Assembly: GCA_025174535.1 (NCBI GenBank)
Contig: JALBUN010000001.1
Span: 1,488,001-1,552,000 of the forward strand
Source: Cantharellus purpuraceus
Lineage: Eukaryota > Basidiomycota > Agaricomycetes > Cantharellales > Hydnaceae
Length of the DNA: 64,000 bases
Reading direction: 5' to 3'
This document shows, piece after piece, positions 51,593-64,000 of the stretch. A program made the translations under genes and the position numbers. The notes beneath the pieces were generated by a model. That model searched no databases. It worked only from the letters and a program-made list of their open reading frames with translations, and was not told the DNA's origin. Numbering within the stretch: position 1 is the stretch's first letter; each line of letters starts with the position of its first letter.

Positions 51593-52111
51593 GCGCTTGG
51601 GCAGAGAGCCCATGAATCCGTAGACCTAGTCGGTTGGTCCGATTCGAACTGGGGCAAGGACCCGGACACGCACCGATCAGTGGGAGGTTTCATGTTTGAC
51701 ATCGCCGGAGGATCGGTCTCATGGTTGTCGAAGAAGCAGCCAACGGTCGCGTTATCTACGGTAGAAGCTGAGTACATGGCTGCATTGAATGCGATGAAAG
51801 AAGCTATATGGTTATGAACCTTACTTGAAGACCTGGGGTATCCACCGGTCACAGCCACCGTCCTTCACGCCGACAATCAAGGGTGCATCGTGCTGGCACG
51901 AAACCCGGTCACCCACACGCATGCTAAACATATTGATATCCGCCATCATTTCATCCGAGAATGAGTAGATTGCAGTGAAGTCAACTTACAATACTGTTCT
52001 ACCAATGATATGTTAGCTGACATATTCACCAAGCAGCTTCCCAGAGACGCATTCGAAAAATTTAGGGAGCTACTAGGAGTGGGAGACGGTTGACATCGTT
52101 GAGCACTCATC

Positions 52112-52120
52112 AAGTGGGAG
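52112..52120 (+). promoter_or_regulatory. Polypurine tract of element D
   Basis: AAGTGGGAG immediately precedes the 3' LTR at 52121, the position from which plus-strand synthesis is primed in LTR elements. Confidence 0.7.
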
Positions 52121-52326
52121 TGATGAAGATCATACGACTCGCCCTCAATGTGGACTCCTATGGGTCCACAACTCGGCAGGCCATAAACAATTTTCTAGCG
52201 CTTACTGGAGTTCATGCTCTTTCTGCTGAACTCCAGGTAAGCAACCCATAGTATTCTGCCAACAACATTAGTATTTAATATACGCTCTTTCTGCTGAACT
52301 CCAGTCTCCGCCTGCCTAAGTTGTTA
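52121..52326 (+). repeat. 3' LTR of element D
   Basis: 206 bp, the same length as the 5' LTR, with scattered single-base differences. It is followed by the right target duplication ATGAC at 52327-52331. Confidence 0.9.
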
Positions 52327-52331
52327 ATGAC

Positions 52332-52985
52332 TCATGCCATGAGTCAGAGCAAATCCAAGCAGCTCATTGGCTAGGAAACTTCCACCCCCTTCTCACTTAT
52401 TCCACTAGCTTCCAGTAGTTTCCATCTATTAATATGTAGAAGTTTCCAGTAGTATTAGTCAGCTCCTGTAAATACAATATAAAAGGAGGCCATTCTGCCT
52501 CTGAAATTAATAACCATTTCTAACCCATCATTTGCACATCAGTGTGACTAGAGTGACATACAGTGTCATCCTCTATATCTCAGTAACTGTTGATTGTCCA
52601 GTTCAAGGGTTGCTTACAGTTGTGTAACTGTATTCAATTGCACTTGAAGTAGTGATTGTCCTGCTTTGGGCATGAGTGTAGTATCTACCTTGCATGACTA
52701 CGAATCTACAGGGTGAGATTGTCTGTCGATAGTCCTGCCATTAGTGCTCTTTGTTTAAGTTACTAGTATGTACTGCCTTTGCAGAGCATTAGGATCTTGA
52801 ACTCATGTGAAGCAGTTGCTAGACTACTTCACACATCGCTGTTACCTGCTTCAGAGTGTCACTGGTTGGACGGTCAGATTCATCCACCTACTTCCTCTAG
52901 CCTGTGCATTCCCCTCTTTTTGGAATATCTGGACCCCTAAGCGTCCATGAACTCTAGACTCTGGATGTCTTATTCATTCCCTACG
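52332..52985 (+). repeat. R1 family repeat, copy c
   Basis: Plus-orientation relative of copies a and b, with a TATAAAAGGAGGCCATTCTG box near 52480. It extends into the part missing from copy b and ends near GTCTTATTCATT. More diverged than a versus b. Element D was inserted at or just inside its left edge. Confidence 0.7.
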
Positions 52986-53549
52986 ACGCTTATTCAGAAA
53001 TACAACAAATACGTATGTACAACCTATTTTCCTCAAATTTTATACAATACACTTCAATTCAAACTTATTTTCATATTTCAACATGATTCTCAAATTTTAC
53101 ACAATATACTAGATTAAAACATATTTTGATATTTTGGCATAATTCTCAAAAATAATTCTTTTTTTCCTGATTTAGTGGTGGCAACTCTCTTGAAGGAACA
53201 TCCAAATATCATTGATTCTTTCTTATACAATACTTATAACATAATTTGAACTATCTTTAATCCCCACCTGGTATTTGTATATCTAAATACCCTATATAAT
53301 ACCAATTATATTAATACATACATTCCTATTATATCCATGTAAATAATTATGTTCATCTCAACCAAATGTCTTATCTTTAAAAGTTTATTAAAATATAGAA
53401 TATATGTTTATATTTATGAAAATTTCACACATCCGAAATCTTTTAAGATATCCAAATTGTAACTCCCTGGCTTTATGTATCATTGAAATTCTGATGTATA
53501 TCTCATATACATCAGAATATTGTATACTGACATGATTCCGAACAAGCGT
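52986..53549. other. AT-rich island without genes
   Basis: About 560 bp with far higher AT content than anything else in the window, full of TAATA/TTATA words. No coding frame is convincing. It abuts the truncated 5' end of element B. The origin is unclear: mitochondrial DNA insertion, AT-biased decay, or an unknown element. Confidence 0.7.
53488..53518. repeat. Perfect palindrome, 14-bp arms, 3-nt loop
   Basis: ATTCTGATGTATAT at 53488-53501 pairs with ATATACATCAGAAT at 53505-53518. It lies 32 bp before the junction with element B. Confidence 0.92.
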
Positions 53550-54453
53550 CTTTGATGGCTCTGATCCGCGAAAGCTCCAGCCGTTCTTGGTGCAATGCCA
53601 GTTGAATTTCCACGACCGCCCTGACACATTCACATCCGATCGGGCGAAGGTCACCTTTGCCATGTCCTATCTCAAGGTTGCACCACACTGGACTACTTTG
53701 AGCCAGCGCTCATGGACGACTCTGATGACCCGAGATGGTCAGAGGACTACTCTGACTTCATCTCCAAACTTCGGACCAATTTCGGTCCTTACAACCCCAA
53801 GGCCGATGCCGAGAATGAACTCGATCAACTTCGGATGAAGGAAAATCACAAAATACATTGTGAGTTTCCAGCAGCTAGCTCCAAAAGTCCAATGGGGCAA
53901 CGCCGCACTCCAACGCCAATTTTATGTTGGACTCCCATCCCACATCAAGGATGAGATATCACACGTCGGTAAGCCGGATACTTTGGTTAACCTCCACAAA
54001 CTCGCCCAATCCATCGATGCCCGTTATTGGGAACGTCAATCCGAGGTCTCCCGCGAAAATTTGGCCAACAACAAATTGGACAAATCATCAGACAAGACCC
54101 CAAAGTCCAACAAGGGGTCTGATAAGAGGGCCACCGCCAACTCAGGCCAAAAGTCAAACACTGGTAATGCTGCTGCTTCCGGTTCTGGTCAGAACAATTC
54201 CAGCACCAGCAATAACTCCAGAGGTCGCAAGAGTACTCCAGACCTCTCCACCAAGCTGGGGAAGGACGGAAAACTTACCCAGCAGGAATGCCAGCGCTGC
54301 ATGGACAACAACCTCTGTCTGTTCTGCGGAAAGCCTGGCCACCAAGCCAAGGATTGCAACAAGGCAACCTCGTCCGCAGCAAAGGCAAAGGGCCATGCCG
54401 CCAATGCCACGACAGACAAGTCCAACGCAAAAGCGACAGACCCAAAAAAATAG
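53550..54453 (+). pseudogene. gag of element B, truncated
   Basis: Begins inside gag at the segment matching FDGS-PRKLQPFLVQ. Frame breaks lie near 53680 and 53880. From 53860 a clean frame runs through KDEISHVGKPDTLVNLHKL to the CCHC knuckle CLFCGKPGHQAKDC and ends at TAG 54453. The knuckle is more canonical than in element A (Gly in place of Arg). Confidence 0.85.
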
Positions 54454-59029: not shown

Positions 59030-60241
59030 TTATACATCACGTTTCCTTTTTCCCTTCCCCTTATCTACCTCAGGCTCCGTCTCCGACTCATCATCACTCT
59101 CTACATCCAACACCCAATCTTTCTCATCCCCCATGTCCGAATCCTCGTCCAAAGGGGCCATAAACTTCTGCAACTGACGTAACTCAGCTGTCCGCCGACC
59201 CTCCAGAACCTCCTTCCGTTTCATTGTCTTCACCAAGTCCACTAGCAACCCCTCCATCCACCGGAGGTGCTCCAACTGCAGGTTAACCAGCCAGATAAGC
59301 TGGCCCACGGTACTATTGGGCACAGAGACACGCCCCGTACCTGCACCGGTTGTTGCCCCTTCCAATCCAACACCGCTACCCCTGGCTGCCACAGCACCTG
59401 GCTCTGTCCGCCGCTTTTTGGTCGGACGACCTTCCGATTCTTTCTCTGCCCCTCCTTGTACCACTAGTTGGGGCTTGACACTCCGACTCCAGGGATCAAA
59501 CTTCCCATCGATCCTACACCCTCCTTTCCGACCCCGACAACGATTGCAGGACCGAAGGCGGTGAGTTGGGCCAGTAGGCCACACGCACTCCACGCCTGCA
59601 TCACGACACAAGTCGCAAGTTATGCCGGGCCCGCCAAATGGCTCCATTGGAGCCAGAGCCTTGGGTGGTCCGCCCCTTCTCGCTGTGGCCTCCAAATGTT
59701 CTCTCTCCTCCTCCTTGTCCTGCTGTTCTGCTGCCGCCTTCTCCATCTCGCGCTTGCGAAGCTGGATTGCCAACCTAGCGACATGCAGCTCCTTCTTACG
59801 GGTCACCAACACGCGACTCTCTGCCTTGCACCATATGACCCTCCGATCCACCTCCCGCTTCTCCGTATCAGCACTTGGGTATGCCTTCAATGAAAAGACC
59901 ACGACATCAAGATTCTTCTTGGTGGTAGTGGCATAGAGCTCCACTCTTTTGCGAGCCTCGACCGTGGCTCCATCTCTGAAATCTCGGACACCGGTATTAG
60001 TGAGGGTGCAGCACATAAGCTGAAGCCAAGTCTGTTCTGACTCCCACAACATATTCCGACCCCGACCCAACCTCCGACCCAACCTCCGACCCAACCTCCG
60101 ACCCAACCTCCGACCCAACCTCCGACCCCCAATCGGACCTAGTGCGTAACAGGCTGGGATTTTGGAACATAGTCCAGAGGTTCTTCTTGAACACAGAGCC
60201 TTTTGCAGCCACATCCAGATGTCCACATCAGACAAGTTCAT
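59030..60241 (-). CDS. Antisense ORF of element B, N-terminus replaced
   Basis: A 403-codon minus-strand frame. The part homologous to the element A antisense protein is 59030-59968 (from ATVEARKR to the Lys/Arg tail). It keeps all six cysteines: CDLCRDAGVECVWP then SCNRCRGRKGGC, i.e. C-x2-C-x6-C twice, 12 residues apart, as in a Zn2Cys6 cluster. The coiled-coil half is deleted. The first about 90 residues are antisense LTR sequence, including an LGRR repeat from the LTR minisatellite, plus flanking DNA. The chimera is probably accidental. Confidence 0.55.
   Translation of the reverse strand: MNLSDVDIWMWLQKALCSRRTSGLCSKIPACYALGPIGGRRLGRRLGRRLGRRLGRRLGRGRNMLWESEQTWLQLMCCTLTNTGVRDFRDGATVEARKRVELYATTTKKNLDVVVFSLKAYPSADTEKREVDRRVIWCKAESRVLVTRKKELHVARLAIQLRKREMEKAAAEQQDKEEEREHLEATARRGGPPKALAPMEPFGGPGITCDLCRDAGVECVWPTGPTHRLRSCNRCRGRKGGCRIDGKFDPWSRSVKPQLVVQGGAEKESEGRPTKKRRTEPGAVAARGSGVGLEGATTGAGTGRVSVPNSTVGQLIWLVNLQLEHLRWMEGLLVDLVKTMKRKEVLEGRRTAELRQLQKFMAPLDEDSDMGDEKDWVLDVESDDESETEPEVDKGKGKRKRDV
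59969..60151 (+). repeat. Residual 3' LTR end of element B
   Basis: Matches the last 180 bp of the element A LTR (ATCTCTGAAATCTCGGACAC to TGCGTAACA). It is fused directly to antisense-ORF sequence, so a deletion removed the U3 part and half the ORF. Confidence 0.88.
60063..60127 (+). repeat. 12-bp minisatellite in the LTR end
   Basis: Five tandem copies of CCTCCGACCCAA. Element A LTRs have a degenerate form of the same sequence. Confidence 0.9.
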
Positions 60242-60573
60242 AGTACCATCTGACTCCTGTCAGATGGCTAGGGGGACCCCATTAGGGTTTACTTGCCACC
60301 CCTGTATGAGGGCAAGTGTGTCTACTGGTGTGGTTGGTAGAGTGAGGATGAGACTTGCATTATCAGCATGAGCCAGCAGAGTCATTCTCTTGATGACTCT
60401 GCACATCAGTACAGTCCATTCTGAGAATGGTGTGGCCAATGCCTTTTTATGGAGTGATATGAACTCCAGAGTGTCTGTATTGCAGATGTCAAACCAGTCT
60501 GCCCTGATAGGGGCAGACTTGCCCAGAGGTCATGGCAGGTGGCCAGTGACTGCTCTGGGAGGGTCAGCCACAG

Positions 60574-61552
60574 TCATGAACCACAGTGCCCATTTGGGGG
60601 ATGATTTCTCTGCATTGGCATGCCTGAAATTGTCCCAGCATTTGTGATAATTTGTACCTGGGCTTCTTCCAGTGTCTTCAATGCTGGGTCTTTTAAGGTA
60701 TGGCTGGCATCACCAGCCATATATTCCTTTCGAAGCTGATCAATCTCAGCTTTGATTTCAGATAGGGCAAAGTTTTCCCAGTTGCTTAGCACCCTTGGGA
60801 ATGCTAGCCAGGAGGAGACCATGATCATGGTCATATCCCTCCCAGATTGGGTCAGTGTTGTCCCAATCTTGACCCTCAAACCCTTGAGGGTCAACCCAAG
60901 GCAATTTGCTTGGGAGATCATCCTCTTTGGTGAGATCAATTGTTTCCCATGACGATGAAGCCACAGGTTGTGATGGCATAATGGCAGGCAATGATTTGCT
61001 TGCTGTAGCATGTGATAGTGATGCTGCTGGGGCCAAGCACACCATTGTGAGCTTGGTTTTGAATGTAGGAGGTGCTCTATCAGCAGCCTCCTTCAGTGTT
61101 TTTAACTCATCTCTGAGATGAGTTACTTCAGACTTCTCATTGTTGAGAAGTCCTTTGAGTTCTTGGACCTGTGCAAACAGGTCCGAGTTAACCTTGTACA
61201 TCTTATCATAGTCTTCACAATATGGTGTCATGACATCATCTTTGATGTTGCGTATAAGTTGTGGCCACACAACTCTTAATGCTCTTTCCACTGAAGCAGT
61301 GGAAAGATATAGTCAGCCTCCATTTTGGGCCACAATTAAGTGCAACACATATGCATTGCACTTGTTGCACCCGTGAGGGTGATGGATGGCAGTGCCACCA
61401 TGCCATCCACCAATTTTCCAGGTCATCTCATCTTGATGACCTCTGATCATATCTGCAGCACTTGTTGCCAGTGCTGCTGCTGTGGAAGTTTGTTCAACTT
61501 CCATTGGATGCTTGTCTTGAGCATCCATCATCTCCCTTCTGAGAGATGACAT
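60574..61552 (-). pseudogene. gag-like region of element F
   Basis: Frames on the minus strand: MSSLRREMMDAQDKHPMEVE to HGCNKCNAYVLHLIVAQNGG (61552-61313), then MERALRVVWPQLIRNIKDD with a coiled coil VQELKGLLNNEKSEVTHLRD (61291-60758), then a third frame to 60574. Breaks separate them. The first part has a Cys pair in HGCNKC. No zinc knuckle was seen. The gag assignment is from position and composition and is tentative. Confidence 0.5.
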
Positions 61553-61892
61553 TTTGATGGAGGGGGGTTGTGGTGGTTTGAAGAAACACTGCTAGCCTTT
61601 TATGGCTGAGCTCAAAATTCTTTATTGAGAATTTTTCCAGTGACTATGTCACATGGGTGTAATGCAATTAATTATTGCTTACCCCTTTTGTGCTACTATG
61701 AGTAGCACAACAGTGAACTGCTCCCTATGGGAGCAGTTTTTTCTACCATCAAGCTGCCTGTTGTTATGGTAGCTCTTTGTCATATCCCACTAGGAGCTAC
61801 CTTTATTCTTGGTAGCTCCACTTCTCCCCCTTGAGCCCCATTAGATCTTTGGGGCTCTGTCTCTCTGAGAACTACTGTCTATGAGGTAGTTC

Positions 61893-63617
61893 TCATGCTT
61901 GAGTCACCCCCCGAAGTTCTAAATAATTGTCTAGAGCTTCTAGGTCCTTACACGATGTGTAAGTTTCCAAGGTGATGTCTCCCAATGTCCATAGAACTTG
62001 AAATTCAAGTTCTCTATCACTTATCCATTGATGAGCAATGATTTCATCAATGAGCCACTCTTGCTTGTCATTGTTCCCAAAGTTGTAAAATGACTTTGCT
62101 TCCCGTTTTGGGAATCTCATCTCATCATTTGGCACATATGGTTGAATGAGACTGATGTGGAACATAGGCATAATGCGCCTACTAGTCAGTTCTGCAGTTC
62201 CAGTGTCACTGTTGAAGCTTTATTATGGGCTTTGATTACTTTATAGGGCCCAATATACTTGGGCACTAGTTTGCTGGTTCTACCCTTAGGTAGAGTCAAG
62301 TTTTTTGTTGAGAGGTAGACTTTGTCACCTCTCTGGAAGGCTGAACCTTCCTGACGTTTGTTATTGGCATGAAACGTCTGAACGTGTTACGCACTAGGTC
62401 CAATTGGGAGTCAGAGATTGGGTTGGAGGTTTGGTCAGAGTTGGAGTACATTGTGGGGGTTGGAACAGACTTGGCTTCAGCTTATGTGCTGCGCCCTCAC
62501 TAATACCGGTGTCTGAGATTTCGGAGACGGAGTACAACTTAGAGAGTTAGGATCGGACTTAGGAACTAGGTGTGATTCAATATTCGAACTGGGGAATGAA
62601 GTCCCCAGTTGGGCAACTTAAATACATATTTTGAAATCTAATAATAATTACTCCAGTGATGGGTCTCCGAGGCCGACGGCCTTACATGAGTATGTCCAAG
62701 TCCAATGGGGATGGATGTCCAGGTTCCTATGGTGATGCTGATGCATCAATTGGAACCAGAGATGGATGGGTGGAATTGGCGGTGACAATCGGACAGGTAG
62801 ATGGAGATGGCGGTTTCCAAATGGAGTATAGATTTCATATGCGCGGGGATCTGAGTGGATCGGACGGGGATCTGGATGTTAATGAATATAGTCATAACAG
62901 AATGACATGACTTTCTATAATCACGTTGTGCGCCACTAGCAGGTTTGTTTGAGCCTGCTGTGCAAATCATTTGACACCCTTGAACTTGGTGTCATTGTTA
63001 ATGAGCATGCCTATTCTAGGCATATACCTGTAGTTAAGCTCAAACGGAGTAAACCCCATTGTTGAGCTTATGTTAGAGTTTAGTGTGAACTCCACCATTG
63101 GACACTTGTGTGCCCAATCTTTCTGATCACTTCGTACAATAGTACAAAGTATTTGGCCAATAGAACGATTTGCTCATTCCATCGCTCCATCTGTTTGTGG
63201 ATGGAACACTGTGGACATGAGGAGTTTCACTCCCATTATCCACTGTAGTTCACGCCAAAAGATAGATGTGAATTTTGAATCTTGATCAGACATGATTGAG
63301 TCTGGTACACTGTGAAGGCATACAACTTCTTTAAGGAATAGCCATGCTACTCCTTTCGCTGTTACATGTGTATTTGTAGGTATTATATGTACCTGCGATG
63401 TGAAGTGATCTATGACTACCAGTAGGTAGTCATAGTCATTTGATTTTGGTAATGGACCCATAAAGTCCATACCTATCAATTGCCAGGGCCATTCCAGTAC
63501 TGGCAAGCTATGAAGAAGCCCTGTGGGTTTCTTTGTACTGTCTTTATTCATTTGGCACTTTGCGCATGAAGTGCAGAATGATTTGACATCGGTGGTCATG
63601 CCTGGCCACCAGTACAA
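61893..63617 (-). pseudogene. Integrase and chromodomain of element F, interrupted by an LTR
   Basis: Minus strand from 63617: YWWPGM, zinc-binding CTSCAKCQMNK, catalytic core GMDFMGPLPKS, IMSDQDSKFTS and HPQTDGAME, then TGA in place of an expected CGA at 63175. It continues ANRSIGQILCTIVRSDQKDW and GFTPFELNYR. After the LTR insertion it resumes at 62394 (FQRGDKVYLSTKNL, KYIGPYKVIKAHNKAS) and ends with a chromodomain (EWLIDEIIAHQWI, FQVLWTLGDITLE) at 61893. Family: Ty3/Gypsy chromovirus. The Asp-Asp-Glu residues are all present. Confidence 0.85.
62395..62899 (-). mobile_element. Solo LTR of the A family in element F
   Basis: 505 bp with TG...CA ends, antisense to the element A LTR. Flanks GAACG (62390-62394) and GAATG (62900-62904) form a 5-bp target duplication with one C-to-T change. 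It interrupts the integrase frame. Confidence 0.88.
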
Positions 63618-63736
63618 CCGTCAAATGTAATTTGCAGTCTTTAGTTGACCAAAATGGCCAACTACTTGGTGTGCATGGTTGATTATTATCTTGACCAGCC
63701 TCCTTCCCTTCAGGAATGCTGAGTGGGGTATACAGA

Positions 63737-64000
63737 TGTTATGCACTAGGTCCGATTGTGTTATGCACTAGGTCCGATTGTGTTACGCACTAGGTCCGAT
63801 TGTGTTACGCACTAGGTCCGATTGGGGGTCAGAGATTGGGTCAGAGGTTGGGTCGGAGTCGGAGCATGTCGTGGGGGTCGGAAACTTGGCTTCAGCTTAT
63901 GTGCTGCACCCTCACTAATACCAGTGTCTGAGATTTCGGAGGTGGAGTATGACTTAGAGAGTTAGGATCGGACTTAGGAACTAGGCGTGATTCAATATTC
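63737..64000 (-). repeat. A-family LTR running off the window, with repeated terminus
   Basis: Antisense LTR start, continuing to the right edge. The first 22 bp of the LTR end (TTACGCACTAGGTCCGATTG core) is present four times in tandem at 63737, 63759, 63781 and 63803; the first two have TTATGC, the last two TTACGC. The rest matches the LTR at 62395 normally. Confidence 0.9.

Follow-up and report, generated by a model that had tools for sequence, protein, structure and literature searches.

Fungal LTR retrotransposons of the Ty3/gypsy group (Metaviridae) combine LTRs with a zinc-knuckle gag, an aspartic protease, a reverse transcriptase (RT), an RNase H and an integrase with H2C2 zinc binding and a SH3_Tf2-1-like end, and carry a polypurine tract. 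The element of Cantharellus purpuraceus described here, called F, agrees with them in all these features and differs in two respects, namely its saturation with short perfect hairpins and an extra 3' ORF that follows pol and has no Pfam family. RNA viruses are known for genome-scale ordered RNA structure, with raised folding along the whole genome. Both fold over the length of the genome, but F does so with perfect short hairpins that are strand-symmetric and show no wobble preference. For hairpins formed by template switching in RNA genes, the pertinent sections of PMC8794818 describe perfect Watson-Crick stems arising in one event, inversion of the loop as a footprint and short loops, all of which match F; the cases treated there are mutation events in RNA genes, whereas in F the whole mobile element is affected, from protein-coding DNA to the LTR. 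In chloroplast DNA, small hairpin inversions are likewise associated with palindromic sequence, but those in the reports considered are isolated and located in spacers, whereas F is a saturated coding element. No description of a hairpin-saturated retrotransposon was found in searches of open-access literature. Unusual in F is the strand-symmetric saturation with perfect hairpins together with flipped loops, for which template switching is the best-supported cause; new is the observation that some loops are reverse-complemented between copies while the arms remain unchanged.

The window, a stretch of 64,000 nucleotides (contig C1, 1488001-1552000), contains a fragment of F which is truncated at 60151 by sequence of the A family and arranged as follows:

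60152..62384, reverse strand: 3' part of the F fragment (integrase end, spacer, 3' ORF), aligned to many genomic copies
60246..61552, reverse strand: 3' ORF, broken in the window copy
61560..61890, no strand assigned: non-coding spacer separating pol from the 3' ORF, about 330 bp
61960..62384, reverse strand: integrase C-terminus, SH3_Tf2-1-like, then a chromodomain-like stretch
62385..62899, no strand assigned: A-family solo LTR, about 515 bp, inserted in F and unrelated to it
about 62900..63736, reverse strand: integrase part of the F fragment, its other end cut at 63737 by A-family sequence
62910..63734, reverse strand: integrase coding DNA, with three stops in the window copy

As read from the sequence, the solo LTR begins and ends with TG...CA and is flanked by a target duplication of 5 bp (GAACG/GAATG); at this point the flanks run together uninterrupted in many other F copies. 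A-family LTRs recur within F copies or next to them, at positions that vary (62385-62899, 60000-60151 and 63737-64000 in the window, as well as L010:2896-3342 adjoining the F copy on contig C23), as if A favoured F or F-rich regions. Short tandem repeats lie at A-family ends at 60060-60125 (CCGACCCAACCT-like) and 63740-63820 (TTACGCACTAGGTCCGATTG-like).

A search of the genome (40.15 Mb, 50 contigs) returned at least 46 and at least 41 DNA matches to the two halves of F, the whole-probe matches being 85-93% identical, the window itself apart. Some copies on several contigs had identical or near-identical scores (G000 C35, C37 and the end of C1; C20:401127 and 410546) and may reflect duplication or redundancy of the assembly. 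Pieces of several copies, overlapping or adjoining, gave the order LTR, gag, protease, RT, RNase H, integrase, spacer, 3' ORF, polypurine tract and LTR, and the sum of the pieces suggests a full length of about 9 kb. The LTR of 269 bp was compared across two copies, with 93.7% identity between the 5' end of one (L075:16-284) and the 3' end of another (L011:3528-3796); at least 41 genomic matches to it were listed among 446 candidates. In gag, zf-CCHC was above the cut-off (E 1.3e-7) and Ty3_capsid below (E 1.4e-4). In pol, RVP_2, RVT_1, RT_RNaseH, Integrase_H2C2 and SH3_Tf2-1 were above the cut-off, the last two in the copy on contig C49, where rve was weak (E 0.016, below the cut-off) and covered a partial core; Chromo at the integrase C-terminus remained below its cut-off of 25.1 bits (E 0.11, 12.9 bits). 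In other copies, the 3' ORF extends beyond 60152 and reaches the polypurine tract, read from the sequence of an F copy, and the 3' LTR. None of the pieces of this ORF that were tested belongs to a Pfam family, and it has two relatives in the protein collection (P0001 and P0002, 46-48% identity). It is also present at L011:2850-3500, lies after pol in the position of env and has a C..C stretch near its start. The original prediction for this DNA mistook the region of the 3' ORF for gag; the true gag is located 5' of pol. F is a multicopy Ty3/gypsy LTR retrotransposon with an ordinary gene content and an extra 3' ORF.

Perfect inverted repeats were counted with loops of at most 20 nt and arms of at least 7, 8 or 9 bp. 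Of the 47 inverted repeats with arms of at least 8 bp in the window, 30 start within the last 4 kb. The larger part of the F fragment (60152-62384, 2233 bp) holds 27 such repeats, compared to a mean of 0.67 and a maximum of 3 in 100 dinucleotide shuffles, and the integrase part (62901-63736, 836 bp) holds 2, compared to 0.25 in as many shuffles. At arms of at least 7 bp the integrase part has 7 versus 1.03 in dinucleotide shuffles, and at arms of at least 9 bp the two parts contain 15 and 2 versus 0.16 and 0.07 (100 dinucleotide shuffles). The latter counts, together with one repeat in the A-family LTR, bear out the earlier statement that at least 16 inverted repeats are present. The A-family LTR had been described as lacking the pattern, and it has indeed no hairpin train, but one inverted repeat does occur in it (62587-62610). 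Outside F, a mild excess was seen at 52000-54000 (3 versus 0.2 in shuffles, arms of at least 9 bp). Two hairpins of the F fragment serve as examples of 11-bp arms:

61103..61125: hairpin with 11-bp arms and a 1-nt loop, in the 3' ORF
63410..63435: hairpin with 11-bp arms, in the integrase coding DNA

Synonymous-codon shuffles, 500 per ORF piece and in frame with the protein kept, gave a similar picture. With arms of at least 8 bp, 14 repeats were counted in 60758-61552 (shuffle mean 0.59, maximum 5), 4 in 60574-61092 (mean 0.53, maximum 3) and 2 in 60248-60637 (0.22; matched by 7 of 500 shuffles); in the latter piece the 5 repeats with arms of at least 7 bp were matched by none of the 500. The excess in the integrase piece is clear at arms of at least 7 bp (7 versus 1.42, matched by 0 of 500) and weak at arms of at least 8 bp (2 versus 0.39, matched by 32 of 500). 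Hairpins were about 4- to 40-fold fewer in the dinucleotide and synonymous shuffles than in most F segments, and 3-fold fewer in 60574-61092 at arms of at least 7 bp, and the original observation thus stands against the codon-preserving control that had been proposed for it.

F probes retrieved 60 loci (L009-L068), with the window itself and overlapping views of one copy among them and with flanks of differing length; these hold 9 to 42 repeats with arms of at least 8 bp per 3.8-4.4 kb. At the same arm length, 0 to 5 repeats per 3.3 kb were present at all eight loci of other integrases (L001-L008), and 0.0-1.0 per kb in all five stretches of DNA beside F copies. Element C, another Ty3/gypsy element of the genome and a comparison of the kind suggested earlier, lacks the hairpin density: 0.0-1.1 repeats per kb (arms of at least 8 bp) were counted in two of its ORFs and in four further ORFs of the window. 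The corresponding values are 2.4-17.6 per kb for eight F coding segments and 18.1, 7.4 and 9.6 per kb for the spacer, LTR and leader of F; in-frame gag and protease pieces reach 6.4-15.3 per kb, and 26 repeats (arms of at least 8 bp) lie in 3.6 kb of the 5' LTR, leader, gag and protease of an F copy. Hairpins are therefore found throughout the parts of F that were read, in LTR, coding DNA and spacer alike. They do occupy 60246..63700, the extent first given, but F reaches down to 60152 and the pattern is also present in gag, protease, RT and LTR in other copies. Taken together, the hairpin excess is confirmed as real, family-wide and beyond composition.

Alignments of 25, 23 and 25 copies were prepared for three regions of F. 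The fraction of columns inside some hairpin was 0.55, 0.62 and 0.45 at irregular spacing, and the arms take up to about 40% of the columns, overlaps not removed. Among the 82 hairpins present in at least three copies, 76 have arms of 7-11 bp, three longer and three shorter ones, and 58 have loops of 0-10 nt; the enrichment of inverted repeats drops to background near a loop of about 20-30 nt. Direct repeats in F are not enriched, and slippage between direct repeats was ruled out on this ground. Hairpins have no strong preference for a register relative to the reading frame. In the RT-RNase H segment, 15.4 repeats per kb (arms of at least 7 bp) compare to 1.6 in synonymous and 1.1 in codon-order shuffles. 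The coding excess lies mostly in the choice of synonymous codons and, to a smaller extent, in the amino-acid sequence itself (about 1.2- to 2.5-fold by segment, arms of at least 7 bp). Residues coded by arms were conserved against element C, the one relative used, to the same degree as others (0.339 versus 0.352, p 0.78); eight further loci yielded no match suited to this comparison. Silent-site bias and conservation of arm residues are compatible with blind creation of hairpins followed by purifying selection, and equally with direct selection for hairpins.

A search for clustered non-CpG differences between copies revealed loops that are replaced by their exact reverse complement with unchanged arms. 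Loop inversion, a known footprint of template switching, affected 8 of the 131 eligible loops, compared to none of 2741 control segments offset from the hairpins. Counted by copy and loop, 19 of 2594 cells were flipped, some loops overlapping, and a looser control with random segments flagged 4 of 17335. Four of the flips are seen in hairpins of the window:

61716..61738: hairpin AACTGCTCCC[TAT]GGGAGCAGTT; 4 of 21 scorable copies carry the inverted loop ATA
60869..60894: hairpin TTGACCCTCAA[ACCC]TTGAGGGTCAA; 2 of 24 scorable copies carry the inverted loop GGGT
60699..60721: hairpin TATGGCTGG[CATCA]CCAGCCATA; the loop is flipped in 1 of 25 copies
63007..63023: hairpin ATGCCTA[TTC]TAGGCAT under the integrase word MPRIGM; 1 of 24 scorable copies carries the inverted loop GAA

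Examples across copies include ACTGCTCCC[TAT or ATA]GGGAGCAGT, GGCAAACTC[TTT or AAA]GAGTTTGCC and, in the LTR, GCACCC[ATA or TAT]GGGTGC; some further loops match the reverse complement only if transitions are allowed. Four flips occur in a single copy and may postdate its insertion. The other four are common to 2, 2, 4 and 7 copies and were either inherited or recurrent, 459 of 1891 marker pairs failing the four-gamete test. Near 61770 the window copy is devoid of about 75 nt between repeated arms; here and in L011 and L038, apparent deletions between repeated arms drop one or more hairpins, and hairpin arms seem to serve as deletion endpoints.

The pertinent sections of PMC8794818 treat loop inversion and the perfection of stems in one step as traces left by template switching; complete loop inversion is considered very rare there and is read as an interstrand jump, and in F it was readily found. 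The inversions between copies lend direct support to template-switch mutation, one of the causes put forward in the original prediction, and on balance we regard it as the probable process by which the whole sequence of F was turned into a train of short hairpins. The pairing without wobble preference, the spread of hairpins over coding DNA, spacer, leader and LTR, and the enrichment of inverted but not of direct repeats speak for it as well. The single-stranded DNA of the element would be copied, most plausibly during reverse transcription, and the growing strand would jump at a near-palindrome to the complementary stretch and then back. In a single jump, an arm could be rewritten to complement its partner exactly, whereby a hairpin is created or perfected; alternatively, the jump could reverse the loop in place. 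Perfect hairpins would attract more jumps, leading to a self-reinforcing state in which purifying selection restricts changes to those compatible with the proteins. We infer that the hairpins originated by the same process as the flipped loops, and we place it in reverse transcription because a retrotransposon passes through single-stranded cDNA in every cycle. Against this account, the comparison of F copies revealed no hairpin newly arisen in one of them, and the account does not predict that this family alone is affected or that arms rarely exceed 11 bp.

The strongest competitor is selection for a structured genomic RNA, comparable to the genome-scale ordered structure of viral RNA and serving packaging, stability or evasion of silencing. 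Very strong folding of the sense strand (z -6.4 to -10.3 in five F segments, versus -1.2 to 0.3 in two control segments) speaks for it, as do hairpins made mostly by synonymous choices and arm residues as conserved as the rest. The folding scores proposed as a check are strongly negative, but they are not specific to the sense strand: the antisense strand of the same segments folds about equally or better (z -7.2 to -13.5). A structure kept for RNA should tolerate G.U more than A.C pairs. The fixed internal helix pairs comprised 469 Watson-Crick, 6 G.U, 13 A.C and 14 other pairs on the sense strand, the G.U and A.C numbers being small, and a looser count on the plus strand of the window yielded 34 G.T versus 35 A.C. 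The signature of selected RNA structure, covariation or tolerance of wobble pairs, was not found in the F helices. Since G.U is not preferred and both strands fold alike, these data argue against selection on RNA.

The differences between copies agree with this. F copies have undergone heavy transition decay, much of it consisting of CpG to TpG/CpA changes of the kind that cytosine methylation of repeats would produce. In the largest alignment, differences amounted to 2683 transition versus 235 transversion cells. All 67 arm pairs with two Watson-Crick types (39, 14 and 14) differ by transitions, and 60 of them stand in adjacent couples, as CpG sites would. At variable pairs 841 Watson-Crick cells were counted versus 801 expected with independent sides, a small excess to be read in light of the fact that these pairs had been picked for being paired. 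The transitions on the two sides thus look independent, and the compensatory arm substitutions that were to be looked for hardly exceed independent transition decay. RNA covariation was ruled out by these transition-only, CpG-like pairs and the near-equal cell counts. The F copies are young and covariation had little chance to arise, which makes the wobble count the stronger test. The copies accordingly stem from a hairpin-rich ancestor, with little or no covariation signal. Selection of a folded RNA, also among the causes first proposed, is weakened by the missing G.U preference, the equal folding of the antisense strand and the near-lack of covariation, and we consider it unlikely.

Strand-symmetric Watson-Crick pairing and the coverage of all F parts read would also follow if hairpins were selected in single-stranded cDNA or DNA, for reverse transcription, integration or chromatin and independent of RNA. 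Loop sequences are free to flip, however, and we know of no function that requires hairpins of such density; this reading appears improbable. Nearly as doubtful, though slightly less so, is a process of the host DNA, either cruciform inversion or template switching in replication, that flips and perfects any hairpins, F having merely begun with more of them. Chloroplast DNA offers a parallel in its small inversions at palindromes (e.g. PMC2903610, as far as the cases described there go), and flips confined to single copies exist. The loci of other integrases (8 of 8) and the DNA beside F (5 of 5) are not rich in hairpins, and a host-wide process would therefore have to choose F. Base composition, CpG decay or chance deserve practically no credence: the aligned copies do show heavy transition decay, much of it at CpG, but decay splits pairs and does not make them, and chance and composition were ruled out by the dinucleotide and synonymous shuffles. 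It is the flipped loops, with the missing preference for wobble pairs, that turn the scale towards template switching.

F-like integrases from a public protein collection of genomes and metagenomes were 51-77% identical over the fragment, among those aligned. The compatibility of their differences from F with the coding of hairpins was compared to that of permuted differences. The mean permutation quantile was 0.81 for 49 F relatives (those of the 120 listed, out of 222 found, that aligned over more than 150 residues) and 0.42 for 120 relatives of element C (the best of 1744 found); the p-values of 7e-8 and 3e-13 are not to be taken at face value because the relatives share ancestry. The two relatives of the 3' ORF disagree in compatibility, with ratios of 1.66 (P0001) and 0.67 (P0002). 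This protein-level test hints that the hairpin trait is clade-wide. Tentatively, and with less confidence than for F itself, we propose a Ty3/gypsy clade in which a reverse transcription prone to fold back would lead to self-reinforcing short perfect hairpins, with the proteins bent to fit.

A strongly negative folding z-score is not by itself proof of RNA function, and F may serve as a warning in this regard. As a multicopy family, F allows loop-inversion events to be counted, and with it one can test whether structure in the genomes of mobile elements or viruses can arise as a by-product of template switching by the polymerase. If the proposed account is true, F would be a natural example of an entire coding genome that owes its secondary structure to mutation bias and not to selection.
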